Assembly: GCA_011523485.1 (NCBI GenBank)
Contig: WTGR01000428.1
Coordinates: forward strand, 1-11,593
Reading direction: 5' to 3'
DNA: 11,593 nucleotides
From: Acidobacteriota bacterium
GTDB taxonomy: Bacteria > Acidobacteriota > Vicinamibacteria > Vicinamibacterales > UBA8438
Shown here: positions 642 through 11,530 of the stretch, one piece after another
Layout: each line of letters begins with the position of its first letter
Numbering within the stretch: the stretch's first letter is position 1
Position numbers and translations under genes: made by a program
Notes under the pieces: generated by a model
Told to the model about the DNA's origin: nothing
What the model saw: the letters and a program-made list of their open reading frames with translations, nothing else
Databases searched by the model: none

Positions 642-2201
642 ATGGCCACCCGCATTGGCAGCAAGGACGATCTCGCGCGCTTGAAACGGGCGCGCGAAGC
701 CGCGGATCGCGCCTACAACGACGCCCTCACGCGGGTCGATCGCGCCCTGCCGCCGCGGCCCGCGCTGCCCGACCCGCCGCGCGCCTTCGATCAACGCCAG
801 CTCACCCCCGTCAACGAGGCTTGGCGTGTGGCGCCCGACGTCGAGCGCCTGCTCGGGACGGGGTGGAAGCGGCGCCTGCGCGCCTGGGTGTGGGACCTCG
901 TCGGCCCGATCGTGGAACGGCAACAGCACTTCAACGGGGTGCTCGTCGACCACCTCAACCGCACGGCGCCAGCGGAAACCGAGGGGCAGCAGGCCCTGAC
1001 CGCGGTCATTGCCGCGCTCGCCGAGCATACCGCCGCGCTGGAGGCCTTCCAGTCACGCCTCATTCAGTACGCGCAGCAGATTACGCCCTTCGTGGACACT
1101 AAGGTCGCGGGCGTATCCCCCGCCATGCTGAGCGCCCTGGACGACGGCCTCGGTGACGAGATGCGCCGGCGCGCCGAGGCGGCCGTCGCCCGCGAGCAAC
1201 GCTTCGCGCGCCAGGTCGACGAGCTACGGACCACGGTGGGGCAGGTGCAGCACGGCCTGCTCGCGATGCGCCGCCGGCTCGAGGGAGCCGCGACGGCAGA
1301 GACCGCGGCGGCAGAGGCCCCGACGGCAGAGACCGCGGCGGCAGCAGAGACCGCGGCAGCAGAGACCGCGGCGGCAGAGGCCGCGACAGGAGAAGCCGCG
1401 GCGGGCGAAACCGCGACGGGCGCGCCCTCCCCGACGAGCCAAGCCCCGGCCCGCGAAGCCGCCGGAACGAAGGCCGCGCTGGACGCCGCGACCGACGCCT
1501 ACGCCTACGTCGGTTTCGAAAACCTGTACCGCGGGTCGCGGGAAGAGATCCGCAGCCGGCTGGCCGAATATCTGCCGCTGTTCGCCGGCGCGTCCGACGT
1601 GCTCGACATCGGCTGCGGGCGGGGAGAGTTTCTCGACCTGCTGCGCGAGCAGGACGTCGGGGCGCGCGGCGTCGACGTCAACGCCGAGATGATCGAAGAG
1701 TGCCGCGCGCGCGGCCTCGACGCGAGCGCCGGCGACGCCCTCGCGTATCTCGACGCCCTGGAGGACGAATCGCTGGGGGGGCTGTTCGCCGCCCAGGTGG
1801 TCGAGCACCTGCAGCCGGACTACCTCGTGCGCCTGCTCAACGTGGCCGGCCGCAAGCTCCGGCCCGGCGCCCGCATCGTCCTGGAGACCGTCAATCCGCG
1901 CTGCTGGTTCGCCTTCTTCGACGCCTACATCCGCGACATCACCCACGTGCGCCCGCTGCACCCCGACACGCTGACCTACCTGCTCGGCGCCAGCGGCTTC
2001 CAGCGCACGACCGTCCGCTACCTCATGCCGTATCCGGACGACGGCAAGCTGCAGCGCATCCCGTTGCCGGACGGCCCCGGGACCGCCGACGCGGATCCCG
2101 CGCTGTCAGCGGCCGTCGAGACCTTCAACGGCAACGTCGACAAGCTGAACGACCTGCTGTTCACGCACCTGGACTACGCCGCCATCGGGGAACGCATCTA
2201 G
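642..2201 (+). CDS. Class I SAM-dependent methyltransferase with helical N-terminal region (glycan-locus type)
   Basis: This is a 519-residue protein. Residues 1-215 are helical and charged, and include the segment QQHFNGVLVDHLNR (about residues 89-102), which I associate with methyltransferases of polysaccharide and O-antigen loci. Residues 217-260 are an Ala/Glu/Thr low-complexity linker. The catalytic domain follows: a YVGFENLYRG lead-in, motif I VLDIGCGRGEF (320-330), a GVDVNAEM acidic strand that should bind the ribose of AdoMet, AAQVVEHL (E388-H389), KLRPGARIVLETVNP, and DITHVRPLHPDTLTYLL. It should transfer a methyl group from AdoMet, probably to a sugar or sugar phosphate, but the substrate is unknown. 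The start is the ATG at 642, 22 bp after thiG, with no clear Shine-Dalgarno sequence. The last 26 codons recur at 3071-3151. Confidence 0.88.
   Translation: MATRIGSKDDLARLKRAREAADRAYNDALTRVDRALPPRPALPDPPRAFDQRQLTPVNEAWRVAPDVERLLGTGWKRRLRAWVWDLVGPIVERQQHFNGVLVDHLNRTAPAETEGQQALTAVIAALAEHTAALEAFQSRLIQYAQQITPFVDTKVAGVSPAMLSALDDGLGDEMRRRAEAAVAREQRFARQVDELRTTVGQVQHGLLAMRRRLEGAATAETAAAEAPTAETAAAAETAAAETAAAEAATGEAAAGETATGAPSPTSQAPAREAAGTKAALDAATDAYAYVGFENLYRGSREEIRSRLAEYLPLFAGASDVLDIGCGRGEFLDLLREQDVGARGVDVNAEMIEECRARGLDASAGDALAYLDALEDESLGGLFAAQVVEHLQPDYLVRLLNVAGRKLRPGARIVLETVNPRCWFAFFDAYIRDITHVRPLHPDTLTYLLGASGFQRTTVRYLMPYPDDGKLQRIPLPDGPGTADADPALSAAVETFNGNVDKLNDLLFTHLDYAAIGERI
1291..1412 (+). repeat. 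GC-rich imperfect tandem repeat encoding an Ala/Glu/Thr linker
   Basis: A unit beginning CGACGGCAGAGACCGCGGCG occurs at 1291 and again at 1321, a 30-bp period, followed by shorter degenerate units of the form gcagagaccgcggcg. It encodes a run of AETAAAEA-like units between the helical part and the catalytic domain of the methyltransferase. Most visible units are multiples of three, so copy-number change would alter linker length rather than frame. Confidence 0.8.
2121..2201 (+). repeat. 81-bp direct repeat, copy 1 (methyltransferase 3' end)
   Basis: The last 26 codons and stop of the methyltransferase gene match 3071-3151 at 77 of 81 positions, offset by exactly 950 bp. The match stops at the stop codon; the flanking DNA beyond it is unrelated. 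Confidence 0.95.
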
Positions 2202-3183: not shown

Positions 3184-3471
3184 TCAGCTCACCGGAGTAA
3201 CCGGGAACAGCCAGCGCAGCAGGCCCAGCATCACCCCGAGCGCCGTGAGGAACCGCCACGTCTGGCCGTTGATCGCCTTCTGGAACTCAACCCGCAGTTC
3301 GCTGGTCTGCTTGTCCATGGCAGCCTTGAGATCGTCCTTGGTCGCCAAGTTCACGGTCGCTATGGCGTCGGCCCTCACGATCGCGTCCGCCTGCTGCTGG
3401 TCGAACCCGTGCTCCCGCAGTTCCGCGGCCGCCTGTTGCGTGTCGAACGGTGGGAGATCCGGCAACGTCAT
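3184..3471 (-). CDS. DUF1640-type (CCDC90-like) small coiled-coil membrane protein
   Basis: A 95-residue protein with the usual order of bacterial DUF1640 proteins. First comes an FDT-type head with a helix-turn segment (FDTQQAAAELREHGFDQQQA, residues 9-28, then DAIV). Next is LATKDDL (about 42-48) opening a short coiled coil. A C-terminal hydrophobic segment (about 73-90, FLTALGVMLGLLRWLF) should be the membrane anchor. The biochemical role of the bacterial members is not established. ATG 3469-3471 is the natural start, with no good Shine-Dalgarno sequence. A promoter-like motif lies so close upstream that a leaderless transcript is possible. It is the only minus-strand gene among the small plus-strand genes here and lies between the methyltransferase remnant and a further coiled-coil gene. 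Confidence 0.75.
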   Translation of the reverse strand: MTLPDLPPFDTQQAAAELREHGFDQQQADAIVRADAIATVNLATKDDLKAAMDKQTSELRVEFQKAINGQTWRFLTALGVMLGLLRWLFPVTPVS

Positions 3472-3684: not shown

Positions 3685-3954
3685 ATGAACGAAACTACTA
3701 TTGTCGTGTCCATCGTCGGAACGGGAATCGGCGTGACGGCCGTCGTCGTCAGCGTTATCGCGATCGTCGCCAATGGGATCAACAGCCGCCTGAACACCAT
3801 GAACGCCCGGATCGAGGCGCTCCGCAGCGACATGCGCGACGATCATCACGGATTGGATACCCGCCTCCGCAACGTTGAGATCGAGTTCGGCAAAGTCGGA
3901 CAACGACTCGAAACACTGGAGCGAGCCGTTCTTCCCCAGGCCCCCCCGGCTTGA
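3685..3954 (+). CDS. Small N-terminally membrane-anchored coiled-coil protein
   Basis: An 89-residue protein of unknown function. Residues 5-30 (TIVVSIVGTGIGVTAVVVSV onward) form a strongly hydrophobic membrane helix. Residues 31-82 are a charged heptad-like helix (LNTMNARIEALRSDM, LDTRLRNVEIEFGKVGQRLE), and a short Pro/Ala tail follows. This resembles many small hypothetical coiled-coil membrane proteins and is loosely like XhlA-type proteins, with no motif specific enough to name a family. ATG 3685 is supported by the purine-rich GAAGAGAAG just upstream. The gene converges with the exosortase operon, leaving 42 bp between stops and no obvious terminator hairpin. Confidence 0.7.
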   Translation: MNETTIVVSIVGTGIGVTAVVVSVIAIVANGINSRLNTMNARIEALRSDMRDDHHGLDTRLRNVEIEFGKVGQRLETLERAVLPQAPPA

Positions 3955-3996
3955 ACCGCGGCCACGCTGCCCACTTGGCGGGTGATACGCGCGCCC

Positions 3997-5514
3997 TCAA
4001 CCGGCCTGCGGCAGCGCGCGCGGCGGAACCGGCGACACGTCGATGACCTCGCGGCGCGCCGGGCGGGTGAGCCACCAGACGACGGCGGCGGGCAGAACGA
4101 GGGCCCAGCCCCGGATCAGGCCGACGTGCGGGTTGAAGCCATAGCGATGGGCGAGCTCGCCGACCGCCACGCCCAGCGCCGCCTGCGCGAGGACCACGCC
4201 GCCGAGCCCGAGCAGGGCGCGCCGCCACGATCGGCCGCCGCCGGCCACCGCGATCCAGAGCGCGGTGAACAGGCCGACCTGGAAGGCCGGCAGGATCGCC
4301 CACGCGCCCTGGTCGTCGGCGAAGGCGTGGACCGCGCGGCCGCCGAGGGCCTCCAGGCCCGCCGTGGCGCCGCCCGCGGCCGCACCGAGAACCGGCGCCG
4401 CGGCGAACGCGGCCACCGCACCCAGTGCGATAGCCACACCCGCGCGCGCCGCGCCGCGCCGCGCCGCGCCGGCCGTCGCGAACGCCGCCGCGGCGACCAG
4501 CAGGACGGCGACCAGCGTCTGCGAGAAGGCGTGGATGGCCGTCACGTACGACCCCACGACCGCGGCCGGAACGGCCAGCACCAGCAGGCGCGAGACGCCG
4601 AGCGCGAAGAAGACGGCCGGCGCCGCCACGAGCATCGCCGTCCGGCGCTTCCAGCCCAGGGGCGCGGCGAGGGCGCCGGCCACGTAGAGCGGGATGAGCG
4701 GGGTGAAGATGCACTCCTGCGTGACGACGAAGGCCCCGTGCCGGGTGAAGATGAGCGCCTCGTGCACGATCGCCCGCGTGCCCGCCGCACTCAGGATGGC
4801 CCCGCCGGTCACGGCGATCCACCCGGCGATCACGTCGACGGCCGGGCTCTGGTAGAAGAACGGGGCGGTGGCGAAGTAGGCCACCACGAGCAGCGCCGCC
4901 AGCAGCAGGAAGCGCCGCGCCGCGGGGCCGAGGACCGCGTCGCCGGGCAGCGCGCCGGCCGCCGCCCCGCCGCCGGGGCCGCCGTCCGCGGCAGTCCCCT
5001 GCCGGCCCATCCAGGCGTAGACGAACCCGGCCGCCGCCAGAATCAGGATGCCGGGCCAGATGTAGATGTGCAGCAGCTCGAGCAGCGCCCGGTCCTCGGC
5101 CACCAGCGACAGGTTGCCGAGCCGGACGACGTTCAGGGCGGTGATGACGGTCAGGCCGACCGCGGCCCCGCGCAGCCGCGCCCGCCAGGTGGCGGGGTAC
5201 GCGAGGATCGCCCCGGCGCACAGCGCCATCGGGTCGCCGCCGCTGCAGCTCGCGTCGGCGTAGACGAGGTCGGACGGCGCGCCGGTGAGCTGGTCGGCCA
5301 CCCCCTGCTGAAGCTGCGCGAACGGCGTCAGAAGCGTCCGCTCCACCCACGCCAGCCGCATCAGGCCGAACAGCCCGACGAACCAGGCGCCGGTGACCAG
5401 CGTGAACCGGAGCATGCCGTCCGACGCCGGTCCGGCCGGCGCGGGCTCGGGCGGCTTCCCGGCAGCCGAAGATCCCGACGCCGCCACTGGGGCCGGTGTG
5501 TTCTCTGCGTCCAT
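3997..5514 (-). CDS. Exosortase/archaeosortase-family protein with two catalytic-type domains
   Basis: A 505-residue polytopic inner-membrane protein. Exosortases are transpeptidase-like enzymes that cut C-terminal PEP-CTERM-type sorting signals using Cys, Arg and His. The first half has C90 in ASCSGGDPMALC, R131 in NVVRLGNL and H149 in LLHIYIWPG. The second half has C268 in VTQECIFTPL, R309 in GVSRLLVL and H328 in AIHAFSQ, after the family-like lead-in VDVIAGWIAVTGGAILSAAG. Cys-to-Arg spacing is 41 residues in both; Arg-to-His is 18 and 19. Residues 350-505 add further membrane segments and the motif GFNPHVGLIRG. Single-domain exosortases are usually about 180-300 residues, so this looks like a duplication or fusion. 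The second set is the less canonical (no CSG), so it could be non-catalytic. ATG 5514 overlaps the methyltransferase stop as TGATG, implying translational coupling. The proline/alanine-rich first 30 residues should be cytoplasmic. Confidence 0.82.
   Translation of the reverse strand: MDAENTPAPVAASGSSAAGKPPEPAPAGPASDGMLRFTLVTGAWFVGLFGLMRLAWVERTLLTPFAQLQQGVADQLTGAPSDLVYADASCSGGDPMALCAGAILAYPATWRARLRGAAVGLTVITALNVVRLGNLSLVAEDRALLELLHIYIWPGILILAAAGFVYAWMGRQGTAADGGPGGGAAAGALPGDAVLGPAARRFLLLAALLVVAYFATAPFFYQSPAVDVIAGWIAVTGGAILSAAGTRAIVHEALIFTRHGAFVVTQECIFTPLIPLYVAGALAAPLGWKRRTAMLVAAPAVFFALGVSRLLVLAVPAAVVGSYVTAIHAFSQTLVAVLLVAAAAFATAGAARRGAARAGVAIALGAVAAFAAAPVLGAAAGGATAGLEALGGRAVHAFADDQGAWAILPAFQVGLFTALWIAVAGGGRSWRRALLGLGGVVLAQAALGVAVGELAHRYGFNPHVGLIRGWALVLPAAVVWWLTRPARREVIDVSPVPPRALPQAG
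4446..4470. repeat. Pentanucleotide tandem repeat (GCGCC)x5 inside the exosortase gene
   Basis: Five exact copies of GCGCC lie at codons about 348-357, after the second Cys-Arg-His set and before the C-terminal membrane region. The unit is not a multiple of three, so gain or loss of one unit would shift the frame and remove the C-terminal part. Confidence 0.85.
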
Positions 5515-6386
5515 CAGGCCGCTCCTTCCCCGGCGGGCGGTTCCGCCGCCCGCGCCCCGGCCGCCTCGTCCGCGGCCGGCCGCACCGCGACCGTCGCCAG
5601 CAGGTAGCCGTGCCGCCGCAGCCACGGCCAGCGGCGCGACGCCAAGTCGAACGGCGCGCACAGGGCGCCCGTCAACCGGCCGAGCGGCCGGAGCCACGTG
5701 TGGCAGGCGAGGTCGAGCATCCGCAGCCAGCCCGGTATGAACAGGATACCGGTCTCGGCGGTCACCGTAAAGCCGGCCCGCTCCAGCATCCGGCGGAAGA
5801 CGGGCCGCGCGTACGACTTCTCGAAGCCGTAGTCGTAGAGGCCCAGGTGGTAGAGCGCCGCCACCAGCGCCGGGCGCAGGAACGGGTCGCGGCGGTTCGG
5901 AACGCCGATGACGGCCCGGCCGCCGGGGCGCAGCACGCGGAAGATCTCGCGCAGCGCGCCGTCGGTGTCGTCGAAGTGCTCGACGGTCCCCATCGAGTAG
6001 ATCGCGTCGAAGCTGCCGGAGCGGAACGGCAGCGTCCGGACGTCGCCGCGCACGCCGCCCAGGGCCAGCCCGTCCGCGGCGAAGCCGGCGCGGGCGTCGG
6101 CGACGATGGCGCCCGAGATGTCCACCCCGAACGCGTGCGCGCCGCGCCCCGCGGCCCAGCGCAGGATGCGGGTGTTCCGCGCCTCGTCCCAGAGGTCGGT
6201 CTTCAGCACCCGGCGGCCGGCCAGGTCGGGCAGGTGCGTGCACAGCAGCCACTCCTCGTCCGCGCGGTACTGCGCGGTGGAGCGGGCGCCGCCCAGATCG
6301 GGGAAGTTGTTGCCGACGTCGGCCCAGAACCCGCGGTAGCGCGCCTCGCTGTCGGCGTCGCCCGCTGCTATCGGCGCCCTACGCAC
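5514..6386 (-). CDS. Class I SAM-dependent methyltransferase with non-canonical motif I
   Basis: A 290-residue protein from GTG 6386, which overlaps the stop of the decarboxylase-like gene by 8 bp (GTGCGTAG). There is no ATG or GTG between it and the first conserved residues (ARYRGFW, about 15-21). The usual glycine-rich VLDxGCGxG is replaced by VLKTDLWDEARNT (60-72), a variant I recall from a family reading LKTDLFDEA. The rest is orthodox: GVDIS (87-91), GDVRTLPFRSGSFDAIYSMG (114-133), TVEHF (134-138), EIFRVLRPGGRAVIGVPN, then FRRMLERAGFTV. It probably methylates a glycan or lipid-linked intermediate at the membrane, as the C-terminal third has hydrophobic stretches; the substrate is unknown. 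Its stop overlaps the exosortase ATG by one base, so the two are probably made together. Confidence 0.82.
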   Translation of the reverse strand: MRRAPIAAGDADSEARYRGFWADVGNNFPDLGGARSTAQYRADEEWLLCTHLPDLAGRRVLKTDLWDEARNTRILRWAAGRGAHAFGVDISGAIVADARAGFAADGLALGGVRGDVRTLPFRSGSFDAIYSMGTVEHFDDTDGALREIFRVLRPGGRAVIGVPNRRDPFLRPALVAALYHLGLYDYGFEKSYARPVFRRMLERAGFTVTAETGILFIPGWLRMLDLACHTWLRPLGRLTGALCAPFDLASRRWPWLRRHGYLLATVAVRPAADEAAGARAAEPPAGEGAA

Positions 6387-6768
6387 CGGCCGTCCGCGAC
6401 GCGGAGGATCCGCCGGCGATCGCCAGCTCGCGCCAATCGGACGACCCGGGCGCGAAGCAGAGCGTGTCGAGCGCGTCGCGCAGCCGCTCGGCCTTTCCGG
6501 CATTCGAGGCGCGGTAGTCGCAGACGTGAAGATCGAGGGTGGCCCGATCCTGCTCGGGCCAGAGGTGCATCACCACGTGGGATTCGGCCAGCACCCAGAC
6601 CAGCGTGGCGCCGCCGCCGGGAAAGGGGACGGCCTTTTCGGCGACCACGTTCAGCCCGGCCGCCTGCACCCGTGCGGTCACCGCGGCGAGCATGCCCGTC
6701 GCCGCATCGCCGGCCGCCCGCAGGTCTTCGGATCGGGTTCCGCCCCCGATGAAATGATGTGCAATCAA
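6379..6768 (-). CDS. S-adenosylmethionine decarboxylase-like pyruvoyl enzyme (SpeD family)
   Basis: A 129-residue protein from TTG 6768. SpeD proteins cleave themselves before a serine, turn it into a pyruvoyl cofactor and decarboxylate AdoMet to supply aminopropyl groups for polyamines. The core is LAESHVVMHLWPEQDRATLD (60-79). With this start, E62-S63 is the cleavage site, H68 the processing histidine and C83 (in LHVCDY) the catalytic cysteine. These are the positions I recall for the Thermotoga maritima enzyme, which supports both the family and the start. A TTG at 6855 would add 29 residues without family resemblance and would place the likely promoter inside the gene. The usual CG after the cysteine position is CD here. 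No spermidine synthase is visible, and some SpeD relatives are reported to act on other amino acids, so the substrate is open. Confidence 0.8.
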   Translation of the reverse strand: MIAHHFIGGGTRSEDLRAAGDAATGMLAAVTARVQAAGLNVVAEKAVPFPGGGATLVWVLAESHVVMHLWPEQDRATLDLHVCDYRASNAGKAERLRDALDTLCFAPGSSDWRELAIAGGSSASRTAGA

Positions 6769-6966: not shown

Positions 6967-9474
6967 TCAGGGCGCGGGCCGCGCCGGGAACGGGTGGACC
7001 AGCACGCCGTACAGGCGCACGCCGAGCTCGCGCGGGTCCGGCGACGAGCCGAAGGCCCGCGGCTGGAACGTCGTCGACTCGATCTCCAGGTAGATCGGAC
7101 CCGCCGCGCCGGTCTCCGGCAGGTCCAGCCGGATCGTCTGCCGCCCCCGCGCGACGACCCGCCGATCGAGCACCCGCTCCCCCACCGACACGGCGATCTC
7201 CGCCGGCGGGGCGCCGGGCGGGCGGGCGCCGGCGACCACCAGCGTGACCGACCCGCCGGCCGGCAACGTGAGAGACGCGCGCGGCCCGGTCCACCGGAAC
7301 GTGTCGCCGGACGCATCCCCGTCGCGCTCCGGCGCATGGAAGCCCCGCAGGTCGTACAGGAGGTCGACGGCGGGCGTCCCGACGTCGACCGCCGCCCGGT
7401 CGCGGTCGATCCTCCCCGTGACCTGAAAGAACCGCAGCGGGACCGCCGTGCGCACGGTCTCCCGCGGGATCCGGTCGCGGGTGGTCTCCAGGGTGTGGAG
7501 GTCGACCTGCGTCCCGCCGATCGCGGCCAGCGCCAGATCCGGCGCGAAGAACGAGAATTCGTCCCGCCCGACCAGGAACACCGGCCGGCCGCGCGCCAGC
7601 CAGTCGCCGATGACGCGCCGCAGGACCGGGCCGTCGGGATTGCGCTGCTGGACGAGGATGGCGTCCACGTCATGGAGGTAGGCCAGCGACGTCGGGATGT
7701 GCGTGGGCGCCAGATCCGGGCTCATCAGCACGACCGCCCGGTCCGGGAACATCCGCGCCACCCGCGCGAGGGGATCGTCCCACAGCGGCTGGCCGATCAC
7801 GGCGAGGCTCGGGTGCGCGACCAGCGCCACGAGCAGCGCGCTGGCGGCCAGGGTCAGCCCCGCCCGATAGCGGGCGGCGGGCACGCGCGCCAGCAGGCGG
7901 ACGGCGGTCAGGGCGGCGAAGAGCATCGTGAGGGGAAGGACGACCGGCACGTAGCGCCGCATCGACCCGATCTGCAGGCCCGTCTCCAGCGGGTCCCACA
8001 GATACTGCAGGCCGACGACGCCGAGCAGCAGGCCGGCGAAGGCCAGCCCCGGCGGGACGGCGTCGCGCCGGACCAGTCCCAGCCCCGCGAGGCCCGACAC
8101 CGCCAGCCCCAGCCCCGCGAGGCCCAGCACCGGCCAGGAGAGGTACCAGCCCAGCCAGGCGATCGTCTCGTCGAGCCGGCCCGTGGTGGCCGTCACGTAG
8201 GCGGCGCCGTAGACGACGATCGCGCCCGCCGCGGCCAGCCCCCACAGCCGCCGGACCCACCGTTCCTCCGGCCGGCGCAGCCCGATGACGCCGGCGGCGA
8301 ACAGCACCCCCGCGGCCAGGGCCGCGCCCATCTGCAGCAAAAGCGATTCCCGCAGCAGGCCGAGCACCTCGGACGTCCGGATCAGGTACGCCACGTACTC
8401 CTTGTAGTGCGACTCGGAGGTGAGGTAGTGCACGAGGTTGTGCGCCGCCAGCAGGCCGAACGTGCCCAGCAGGGGCAGCAGCAGGGGCTGGTCGTCCGGC
8501 CGCGCGCGGCCGAGCAGCCGCACCGCGGCGACGGCCAGCAGGAAGACGCCGAGCAAGACGACGAGATCGACCTTGGCGAAGCAGGCCAGGCCCAGGAACC
8601 AGCCCGCGGCGCACGCCCACCGCGGGGCGCCGCGCGCGGTCGCCACCAGCCACGCGAGCACCCCGGCCAGCACGAAACACTGCGCGAGCGTCTCGGGCAG
8701 CGGGACCTTCGCGAACCAGATCTGCGGCATCGAAACGGCCGTCAGCGCGGCCGCGAGCCAGGCGGCGCCCACGCCGCCCAGCCGCCGCGCCACGCACCAC
8801 AGGCCGATCAGGCTCAGGGTGGCGAAGAGGGGCGCCACGACCAGCGCGCCCTGCGGCGAGACGAGCGCGTGGCCCAGGGCGGCCAGAACCGGAAACAGCG
8901 GCGAGAAGCCGGCGGTGACCGTCGGGTCGGCGATGTCCGGAATCAGCAGGCCGCCGGGGAACCGCGTATACGGCCGCCCGTCCAGGGAGACGCGCACGGT
9001 CCACGCCACGTCGCCGGGCACGCGGTTCAGGAACAGCTCGGCGCGGCTGGCGGGCGGCAGTTGGCGCAGCAGCGGATCCTCGAACTCGAGCGCGCCGTGG
9101 CGGGCGATCTGCCGGCTGAAGTTCAGATAGACGGTGGCGTCGCCGGCGTCCGTCTCGGTGTGGTAGGGCGGGAGGAACAGCGCGGCGCACGCCAGTATCC
9201 CGGCCGCCGCGGCCAGCGCCGGGCGCCATCCGCCGCCGGACGCGGCGGGCGCGGGCGGAACCGTGCGGAGGGCGCCCCACAGGCCGAACCCGATCACCGC
9301 GACCGCGAGCACGAACGCCACCAGGCCCAGCCGCAGCAGACCGAGCTCGGCCAGCAGCAGCGCCGACCACGCCACCACGCTCACGCCCAGCATCACGCGC
9401 AGGAACCAGCGCTCCACGCGCGACGCGCCGTCGCGGTCTTCGGGGTCGGGTTTTTCCGGCGGCGCCGCGGTCAT
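6967..9474 (-). CDS. Polytopic GT-C-type glycosyltransferase with C-terminal beta-sandwich-like domain
   Basis: An 835-residue inner-membrane protein. After two N-terminal hydrophobic segments and another at about 85-101 comes the periplasmic loop [20 protein letters not shown], whose acidic residues (D109, D112) sit where GT-C enzymes of the ArnT/PMT type keep their catalytic Asp. About ten more membrane segments follow to roughly residue 560. Residues about 565-695 form a soluble part. About 695-835 is a predicted beta-rich domain ([20 protein letters not shown], then [14 protein letters not shown] and [14 protein letters not shown]). It should use a polyprenyl-phosphate sugar to glycosylate an acceptor at the periplasmic face; donor and acceptor are unknown. 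ATG 9474 overlaps the dehydratase stop as ATGA, so both belong to one operon. Confidence 0.82.
8071..8130. repeat. Two 30-bp tandem units inside a membrane segment of the glycosyltransferase
   Basis: Bases 8071-8100 and 8101-8130 match at most positions around the core CCCAGCCCCGCGAGGCCC. They encode the repeated GLAGLGL of a transmembrane helix on the minus strand. The frame is kept; this looks like a local duplication. Confidence 0.7.
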
Positions 9475-10403
9475 GGCGCCCGCGACCCGCCTGCCGCGAG
9501 CCGCTCGACGTCCGCGTCGACCATCATCCGGATCATCGACCCGAAATCGACGAGACGGTCCACCTCGGCCGGCCGCTGCAGCGCCGGGTCGGTCCGCACG
9601 TACCTGCGCCAGTTGAGCCCGCCGTGGATGAACGCGCACTCGACGAGATCGCGCACCGAAAAGTCGAGCCCGGTGGCGATGACGTAGTCGTCCGGCCGAC
9701 CCTGCTGCAGCATCAGCCACATCGCCCGCACGTAGTCGCCGGCGAAGCCCCAGTCGCGCCGCGCGTCCAGGTTGCCGAGCGCGAGCGCGTCGCACAGGCC
9801 CGCCTTGATCCGCGCCACGCCGTCGGTGACCTTGCGGGTCACGAACTCCAGGCCGCGGCGCGGCGACTCGTGGTTGAAGAGGATGCCGGAGACGGCGAAC
9901 AGGTCGTAGCTCTCGCGGTAGTTCACCGTGATGTAGTGGGCGAAGACCTTCGAGACGCCGTAGGGGCTGCGCGGGTAGAACGGCGTCAGCTCCGTCTGCG
10001 GCGTCTCGCGGACCTTGCCGAACATCTCGCTCGACGACGCCTGGTAGACGCGGATCGACGGGTCAACCTGCCGGACCGCCTCCATCAAGCGGGTGACGCC
10101 CTGCGCGTTGTACTCGCCGGTCAGCAGCGGCTGGTCCCACGACGCCGGCACGAACGACATGGCGGCCAGGTTGTAGATCTCGTGCGGCCGCACCTCGTCG
10201 ACGAGCCGGATGAGCGACAACTGATCGAGCAGATCGGCCGGCCGCAACTCGATGCGGTCCAGCAGATGGGCGATGCGCCAGTGGTTGGGCGCGCTGAGCC
10301 GGCGCGTGACGCCGACCACCTCGTAGCCCTTCTCGAGCAGCAGCTCCGCCAGGTACGAACCGTCCTGCCCGGTGATTCCCGTGATGATGGCGCGCTTCGA
10401 CAC
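9471..10403 (-). CDS. gmd: GDP-mannose 4,6-dehydratase
   Basis: A 310-residue extended short-chain dehydrogenase. It converts GDP-D-mannose to GDP-4-keto-6-deoxy-D-mannose, the precursor of GDP-fucose, rhamnose, talose or perosamine. It has the NADP-binding GITGQDG (residues 9-15), [39 protein letters not shown] with E126, the catalytic YGVSK (Y148, K152), [26 protein letters not shown], and RPAEV (277-281), which contacts the nucleotide in the family. About 16 residues normally after RPAEV (the GDPxKAxxxLGW segment) are missing, making it shorter than the usual 320-370. GTG 10403 is preceded by AGGGG. It heads the minus-strand operon. No epimerase/reductase or aminotransferase for the next step is in the window. 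Confidence 0.93.
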
Positions 10404-10681: not shown

Positions 10682-11530
10682 CTAGCTGTTCAGCAACCGC
10701 TGCCGGCGCAGACGCCGCCGACCGGCCGCTACCAGACCCAGCCCGAGCGCGAAGGCACCGAAGAGCGGCAGAGCCGGCGTCGGCATGGCCCCTGCCATCG
10801 GCGTGGCATCCTCTTCGTCCGACCAGTCACCGCACATGTTGTAAGAGCAGGCGCGCACACGCACGGTGTACTCCATGTCGTTCTCCAGATTGGAGATCGT
10901 CCACTCGGTCGAGGTGTTCTTCATGCTCCCCATTCGAGAAGTCTTGTACTTGCTGTCCGCTTCGTCGGACATCTTGTACTGCACCTCGTAGCCCGTGACC
11001 GGGGAACCGTTGTCGGTGGTTTCGTCCCACATCGCCATGATCATGCCGTCACCCGCCATCAGCTCCAGACCCATGAGGTCATCCGGCGCGTCGGCAGTAT
11101 CGGTCTCCTCCGTGGCGAAGACCTCGCCAGCATCGGCCCCCGTTCCGGCTTCCGCGATAAGCCCAAAGATGTAGTCGGTACCCGGATCCAAACCGTCAAT
11201 GGTGACCGAGTAGTCATTGCTACCGGTCATCGGGTCAACATCCATCCGCATCGTGTTCATCGTGGCGAGGAAGTCGGCGGCGTCAAGGGTCGTGTCACCC
11301 GTCCCGCTGTTCGCGGCATCCCCCTTCTGATATCGAAGGGAGAAATTTTCGACGCCGCCCGCGCCCGCGTCGTGCTCCCAGGTAAGGCGTATCTTGTCAT
11401 GACCGCGCGCGTTGGCAGCGAAGCCTGTCGGGTCTCCGGCCTGCGCGAAGGCGGCCCCCGACGAGAACGCCATGAAGGCCACCATCAGGCAGCCGATCAC
11501 GAAAAGAGAACGCCGTCTGTGCATCATCAT
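10682..11530 (-). CDS. Secreted protein with two fibronectin type III domains and PEP-CTERM-like sorting tail
   Basis: A 282-residue protein. Residues 1-29 are a signal peptide (HRRR, then FVIGCLMVAFMAF, cleavage after AAFA). Two fibronectin type III-like domains follow. The first, about 33-135, contains KIRLTWEHD and YSVTIDGLDPGTDYIFGLIA. The second, about 148-243, contains VTGYEVQYKM, WTISNLENDMEYTVRVRAC and a terminal ATP; two close cysteines (RACSYNMC) may form a disulfide. The end is PTPALPLFG (250-258), a hydrophobic helix, then GRRRLRRQR. This is the short motif, membrane helix and Arg cluster order of exosortase substrates, though the motif is not a standard PEP. It should be exported and then processed or anchored, probably by an exosortase such as the one at 3997-5514. 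Three ATGs in a row (11530, 11527, 11524) follow GGAGGA; the second or third has the better spacing. Its GC content looks visibly lower than the operon's. Confidence 0.85.
   Translation of the reverse strand: MMMHRRRSLFVIGCLMVAFMAFSSGAAFAQAGDPTGFAANARGHDKIRLTWEHDAGAGGVENFSLRYQKGDAANSGTGDTTLDAADFLATMNTMRMDVDPMTGSNDYSVTIDGLDPGTDYIFGLIAEAGTGADAGEVFATEETDTADAPDDLMGLELMAGDGMIMAMWDETTDNGSPVTGYEVQYKMSDEADSKYKTSRMGSMKNTSTEWTISNLENDMEYTVRVRACSYNMCGDWSDEEDATPMAGAMPTPALPLFGAFALGLGLVAAGRRRLRRQRLLNS

Follow-up and report, generated by a model that had tools for sequence, protein, structure and literature searches.

We found that a single 505-residue protein encoded in the window (the whole 11,593-nucleotide stretch of DNA that was analysed) contains two exosortase domains, each with its own Cys, Arg and His, followed by a third membrane domain. 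By sequence comparison, both halves of this tandem protein are exosortase domains, and it is likely, though well short of certain, that the protein has two working active sites that serve one family of C-terminal tags.

Two exosortase domains in one chain

3997..5514, minus strand: tandem exosortase, 505 aa; ATG at 5514, stop ending at 3997
4990..5415, minus strand: first exosortase domain (D1), residues 34-175; C90, R131, H149; motif CSGGD
4465..4932, minus strand: second exosortase domain (D2), residues 195-350; C268, R309, H328; motif VTQECIFTPLIPLY
4066..4464, minus strand: third membrane domain (D3), residues 351-483; four predicted helices, no Cys

The Cys-Arg distance is 41 residues in both triads (C90/R131/H149 and C268/R309/H328), and the Arg-His distances are 18 and 19. 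A recount of the sequence bore out the residues, the length of 505 aa and both spacings given in the initial annotation, which had the triads and the length right but omitted the strand: the gene lies on the minus strand. The G+C content at codon positions 1/2/3 of the minus-strand frame was 0.77/0.57/0.95, with the peak at position 3, as in 6 out of 6 other window genes tested. The antisense plus-strand ORF (541 aa, 3982-5607) had values of 0.93/0.59/0.78, highest at position 1, and based on these patterns we read the minus-strand frame as coding and the antisense ORF as non-coding.

We compared both halves with a profile of 16 single-domain XrtX-like proteins (17 were picked, and L108, a wrong ORF, was dropped). 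In hhalign the match of residues 34-185 spanned 145 columns at E 2.7e-29, and that of residues 192-350 spanned 152 of 159 columns at E 8.7e-11, in agreement with the initial claim of two exosortase domains in one chain. The Cys-Arg distance of 41 in the 17 single-domain picks was imposed by the search pattern, while the Arg-His distance was not, and the His stood 19 or 20 residues past the Arg in 16 of them. Aligned with each other, D1 and D2 shared 59 gapless columns in which C90 is paired with C268 and R131 with R309 (E 2.8e-5, probability 74%).

Among the NCBIfam models, the whole protein matched XrtX (67.6 bits), XrtY (50.5 bits) and XrtH (49.7 bits), with two matched stretches in each, and did not reach the cut-offs of XrtX (NF046081, 170 bits), XrtY (NF046083, 160 bits) or XrtH (TIGR04177, 86 bits). 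It passed TIGR04178 with 35.7 bits (cut-off 23), the match being the first half. A family search with each half, as the initial annotation had suggested, gave matches for both. Residues 1-190 scanned alone scored 38.3 bits with TIGR04178, above the same cut-off, and had XrtH as their best NCBIfam match (57.7 bits, also below its cut-off), and residues 191-360 matched XrtX (3.5e-7), XrtY and pacearchaeosortase; the isolated second domain of the window protein matched XrtX at 2.6e-7. Fifteen isolated second domains matched XrtX (14/15), XrtH (9/15, best 2.2e-11), XrtY (8/15), ArtE (7/15), TIGR04178 (7/15), archaeosortase B (6/15) and EpsH (3/15), and the second half of the G092 member scored 23.0 bits with TIGR04178, counted as over the cut-off. 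A Pfam scan of the window protein gave no match; PF09721, which we take to be the EpsH exosortase family, was annotated among the matches listed on some database relatives in one listing and on most in another.

The spacing of the second triad is weak evidence by itself. In 20,000 shuffles of residues 186-505, a Cys-Arg distance of 41 with an Arg-His distance of 18 or 19 arose in 0.2%, rising to 1.0% with a slack of 1 residue and 9.5% with a slack of 5, so that chance produces it at 0.2-10% depending on the slack and conservation has to decide. The reading of the second triad as a coincidence in an unrelated membrane domain could draw on this rate, but it is contradicted by the full-length profile match of D2, by the exosortase matches of 14 of the 15 isolated domains and by the G092 second half at the TIGR04178 cut-off, and its probability is vanishingly small.

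The AlphaFold2 model of the whole protein (pLDDT 80, pTM 0.65) has long helices throughout, and the tandem exosortase is predicted to be a polytopic membrane protein. D1 was modelled with helices at 31-52, 55-77, 93-105, 110-137 and 142-177, and D2 with helices at 197-221 and 224-243, three strands, and further elements at 266-269, 273-283, 288-314, 317-320 and 323-348. In this model the helix order repeats, and the Cys, Arg and His of each domain fall at matching places: in each domain a short helix (93-105 or 273-283) follows the Cys, the long helix after it carries the Arg close to its end, and the final helix carries the His close to its start. A search by sequence for a solved exosortase structure found none.

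The initial interpretation held for the two domains with conserved triads but left the third domain (about 351-483) unmentioned. D3 was modelled with helices at 351-390, 404-424, 430-458 and 464-483, and with the same helices when modelled alone (pLDDT 76). Its conserved residues are D400, Q402, P409, F411, Q412, R468 and W470; D400, Q402, P409 and R468 are each kept in 256 sequences of an alignment of 257. Its repeated helix order, and the position of R468, which corresponds to that of H149 and H328, had suggested a third repeat. Tested with hhalign as a decayed third exosortase copy, D3 showed no similarity (E 0.25, 0.32, 0.27), and the family search with about residues 351-483 matched no recognised family or relative.

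Conservation, divergence and origin of the two domains

We examined conservation in an alignment of the window protein with 256 distinct proteins among the matches listed (n=257), taken from three database searches that each scored about 8000 candidates and listed 120 of their 332, 338 and 1250 matches, respectively. All six triad residues were kept in 254 of the 257 sequences. The three exceptions (P0053, P0060 and P0074) depart in the first triad only, and P0060 is apparently frame-shifted in that region. The initial annotation had tied its second domain to the conservation of C268, R309 and H328 in homologues, and had looked to other members of similar length: the three residues are invariant (257/257), as are E267, T271, P272, L273, F330 and Q332, and 253 of the 256 relatives, 423-558 aa long, keep both triads.

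We sampled 100 genomes of the class of G008, which is Vicinamibacteria according to the locus titles, and found the tandem family in 18, the copy of G095 being a fragment and that of G089 lying in two pieces. All six residues were kept in 15 of the 18 loci; of the other three, L065 and L067 are truncated, and the single place covered by L066 and L068 is without the R309 region. Identity to the window protein was 62-93% in four of the intact loci and 33-39% in the other eleven.

Named loci come from metagenome assemblies of Acidobacteria or Vicinamibacteria (L006 is titled only 'bacterium'), where two neighbouring genes might have been merged by a sequencing or assembly error. Such an error is contradicted by the lengths of the 256 relatives, 253 of which have both triads, by the agreement of 15 of the 18 class loci, and by the tree, in which the D1 sequences group in one clade (96% of 200 bootstrap trees) and the D2 sequences in another (100%); we give it almost no credence. 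Because each domain forms one clade, the tandem form would most simply go back to one old event. The two domains do not come out as sisters, and since the placement of D2 rests on long branches, duplication and fusion are both possible origins. No close stand-alone second domain turned up when up to 12 candidates were scored in each of 297 phylum genomes: the second-domain profile A8 matched 6 tandem proteins, all below E 1e-55, and 17 ORFs of single-domain size, with E between 4e-8 and 5e-5. The tandem enzyme is the only exosortase in all nine genomes G001-G009, but we rejected this as a general rule, as G061, G063, G068, G076 and G095 of the class sample have a second TIGR04178 match on another contig.

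At the second site, the SG after the Cys is replaced by [IV]-x-T-P-L, and this site lacks the [ND]G found after the Cys in single-domain relatives. The initial annotation had described the second site as diverged, which stands for the change from SG to [IV]-x-T-P-L; the preceding QEC is no sign of divergence by itself, because two single-domain-size exosortases of the class sample (L082 and L088, the only 2 of the 22 loci of that set where the pick rule caught the exosortase ORF) read QECSG.

This divergence bears on whether D2 works. In a fused pseudo-dimer only D1, with its CSG, would cut, and the D2 triad would be kept for folding, substrate holding or regulation; the missing [ND]G, the long branch of D2 and the closer relation of D1 than D2 to the single-domain relatives are consistent with it. 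A domain that merely held the substrate would be expected to lose some triad residues, so the invariance of C268, R309 and H328 (257/257), which extends to class members only 33-39% identical to the window protein, counts against the pseudo-dimer, and we regard it as unlikely. Both active sites are probably catalytic. Since both are kept, two catalytic steps or two substrates would be preferred over one site with a scaffold. Of the three roles suggested in the initial annotation, one catalytic half with one holding half was thus the least favoured, both triads being kept, and the evidence did not separate the other two.

C-terminal tags and partner genes

10682..11530, minus strand: fibronectin-III protein with N-terminal hydrophobic leader, probable substrate; PF00041 3.3e-21; ends in the tag
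10685..10777, minus strand: C-terminal tag PALPLFGAFALGLGLVAAGRRRLRRQRLLNS, tail of the fibronectin-III protein

The tails of proteins encoded near the enzyme consist of VP[AT]LP, a hydrophobic stretch and an Arg-rich end, and are related to IPTL-CTERM. All 15 aligned tails share an invariant P, L, P, L and G, and the tag takes clade-specific forms (VPTLPQ, VPALPL, VPALPV). VPTLPQ tails were found near the enzyme gene in L119, L120, L124, L125 and L128, and the fibronectin-III protein of the window, which has relatives near the gene in L001, L002 and L127, ends in TPALPLFG..., a tail of the wider form P-x-L-P. The L119 tail passed IPTL_CTERM (TIGR04174) with 22.8 bits (cut-off 20.5), other tails gave weak matches to IPTL_CTERM or 'midcut_by_XrtH', and the window tail (49 aa) had no match to TIGR04174 at E up to 10. 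The system adds a type of tag whose window copy escapes the NCBIfam IPTL_CTERM model.

In the class sample, a tag profile (E 0.01) matched 12 of 18 enzyme-bearing genomes versus 6 of 82 others. Part of this link rests on the genes from which the profile was built; without the 8 seed genomes the counts were 4/10 versus 6/82 (Fisher 0.011, relatedness of genomes ignored). In the four non-seed genomes with both enzyme and tag (G011, G061, G096 and G097) the tag lies about 0.5-1.2 kb from the enzyme gene. TIGR04174 was over its cut-off in 5/18 enzyme-bearing genomes versus 3/82 others. In G035, which is tagged and enzyme-negative, a contig end not far from the tag gene reads by eye as the start of SpeD, and the enzyme gene may therefore be missing from the assembly. 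The tandem enzyme is likely to trim and anchor these surface proteins, a set recognised here for the first time.

The difference of tags between clades, together with the strict motif that D2 has of its own, would also fit two specificities, with each domain handling its own tag class. Against this, the tails are alike within G008 and within G009, the two genomes with several tails read, and an unsystematic look recognised no second tag class; we consider two specificities quite improbable.

Four of the tagged neighbours (L119, L120, L124 and L125) carry a domain that resembles ice-binding proteins (NF045625; E from 1.3e-10 to 4.2e-31, in each case below the cut-off). G009 has 17 tag matches in total, and in its loci L133, L134 and L135 tagged ORFs with VPALPLVG-like tails stand side by side in groups of two or three. 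L166 of G035 contains a lone D3-like fragment near a tag gene, on the contig that ends in the SpeD-like start.

5514..6386, minus strand: methyltransferase MT2, partner; ORF open to 6503, likely GTG start at 6386; motif KTDLWDEARNTRI
6379..6768, minus strand: SpeD/AdoMetDC-like decarboxylase; ORF open to 6855, likely TTG start at 6768; PF02675 3.9e-13
6967..9474, minus strand: membrane glycosyltransferase-like protein (PMT_2), possible partner; likely ATG at 9474; PF13231 27.4 bits, cut-off 26.1

We found that a SpeD-type decarboxylase and the methyltransferase MT2 are genetic partners of the tandem exosortase. If the likely starts are used, each window gene in the order SpeD, MT2, exosortase overlaps the next one at its end, and the last stop base of MT2 is the first base of the exosortase ATG (5514). 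A PMT_2-like glycosyltransferase is also found near the exosortase in L005, L009 and L127.

MT2 was detected at E 1e-40 in 17 of the 18 enzyme-bearing genomes versus 0 of 82 others (at most 24 candidates scored per genome; 11 of the 17 positive genomes gave rows to the profile), and in 6/7 versus 0/82 without the 11 profile-seed genomes. It lies on other contigs than the enzyme in G009 and G092, and is fused to it in G096, in one 728-aa ORF (L061, L123). MT2 contains the motif KTDLWDEAxNTRI. Its motif I reads KTDLWDE (invariant in 12/12 aligned); methyltransferase motif I is usually a Gly-rich loop. We dropped the idea that MT2 is exclusive to enzyme-bearing genomes, since six phylum genomes without a second-domain match have close relatives (E 1e-77 to 1e-103) and the class genome G014, without the enzyme, has a weaker one (4.9e-28). 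No exosortase was seen near the six phylum relatives in the stretches fetched (only 4.0 kb for L181 and 8.4 kb for L185). Ornithine/arginine-decarboxylase-like and sugar-epimerase-like ORFs lie directly upstream of the MT2 relative in L186 (Pfam) and L185 (by eye), and a radical-SAM-like ORF adjoins it in L183 (Pfam), L182 and L184 (by eye).

The linked type of SpeD (E < 1e-30) was present in 11/18 enzyme-bearing genomes versus 0/82 others, and at E 1e-6 the counts were 15/18 versus 8/82. The linked-type profile has rows from 9 of its 11 positive genomes; without seed genomes the counts were 2/9 versus 0/82 (linked type), a weak link, and 6/9 versus 8/82 (E 1e-6). The window copy is below the TIGR03330 (AdoMetDC/SpeD) cut-off of 75.65 bits (46.1) and the L119 copy above it (78.1). 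The ESH, H, WPE, D and C columns, presumably the pyruvoyl site, are invariant in 12/12 aligned sequences. The link has exceptions: L001-L004 and L009 show no close SpeD and MT2 matches next to the exosortase gene.

Finally, the window contains a MetW-like methyltransferase with a long low-complexity Glu-Thr-Ala linker (642-2201, plus strand) and a shortened GDP-mannose 4,6-dehydratase-like protein of 310 aa (9471-10403, minus strand; 376.6 bits versus a gmd cut-off of 415). Three small ORFs lie between the two large gene groups (2473-2859, plus; 3184-3471, minus; 3685-3954, plus), and the first and last of them, by eye, have one hydrophobic segment followed by a coiled-coil-like stretch.

Proposed mechanism and comparison with known systems

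To our knowledge, how bacterial exosortases resolve the cut substrate, and to what they attach it, is an open question. In the mechanism that we propose, an inner-membrane protein with a full Cys-Arg-His set in both of its complete exosortase domains, and with a Cys-free third membrane domain, would cut exported surface proteins at their VP[AT]LP-hydrophobic-Arg tag as proposed for ArtA. The Cys would attack the peptide bond just ahead of the hydrophobic stretch, a thioester would form, and an amine-bearing acceptor would resolve it, so that the protein is anchored or released. One guess is that SpeD and MT2 synthesise or modify this acceptor; as genetic partners, they point to a candidate pathway for it. 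In a speculative model for ArtA, the Cys thioester is resolved by the amine of archaetidylethanolamine, which is made with the decarboxylase HvPssD (PMC7157517). SpeD, too, is an amine-producing decarboxylase. Some of its homologues act on ornithine or arginine (PMC10407285).

Within this mechanism the two sites could divide the labour, the canonical CSG site cutting and the QECxxTPL site taking part in acyl transfer, an assignment that we favour, if only tentatively. A relay is a more doubtful proposal still: the cut protein would be passed from Cys90 to Cys268 in the membrane and joined to an amine or modified headgroup from SpeD and MT2. If true, the relay would be a new way of anchoring bacterial surface proteins, with separate sites for cutting and transfer. 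Two intact active sites in one chain also mean that each can be knocked out separately.

The superfamily is known. We found no tandem exosortase described among the open-access papers listed, and none of the NCBIfam model names returned by our scans denotes a chain with two intact exosortase domains. XrtH exosortases pair with IPTL-CTERM tags. Residues 1-190 have XrtH as their top NCBIfam hit, and 9 of the 15 isolated second halves match it too, but the tandem protein stays below its 86-bit cut-off and has two domains plus a third; likewise, the L119 neighbour tag passes TIGR04174, whereas the window tag (TPALPLFG) is unmatched by it. The single-domain XrtX-like exosortases of Acidobacteriota, relatives of NF046081 that all fall below its cut-off, align to both tandem halves near full length. 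They have one domain (151-243 aa in the 16 usable picks, versus 505 aa) and an Arg-His spacing of 19-20, versus 18 and 19. XrtE is an exosortase joined to a CAAX-type protease domain, and resembles the tandem protein as an exosortase in a multi-domain chain, but its second domain is another protease and not an exosortase.

ArtA has one exosortase-type domain. Haloferax volcanii ArtA needs C173 and R214, 41 residues apart (PMC9263693), and shares with the tandem system this Cys-Arg distance, a tripartite tag and a proposed amine-resolved thioester (PMC9263693, PMC7157517). The third residue is Arg253 in ArtA versus His in the tandem exosortase, and the partners of ArtA are the lipid-synthesis proteins HvPssA and HvPssD, whereas those of the tandem exosortase are SpeD and a methyltransferase.
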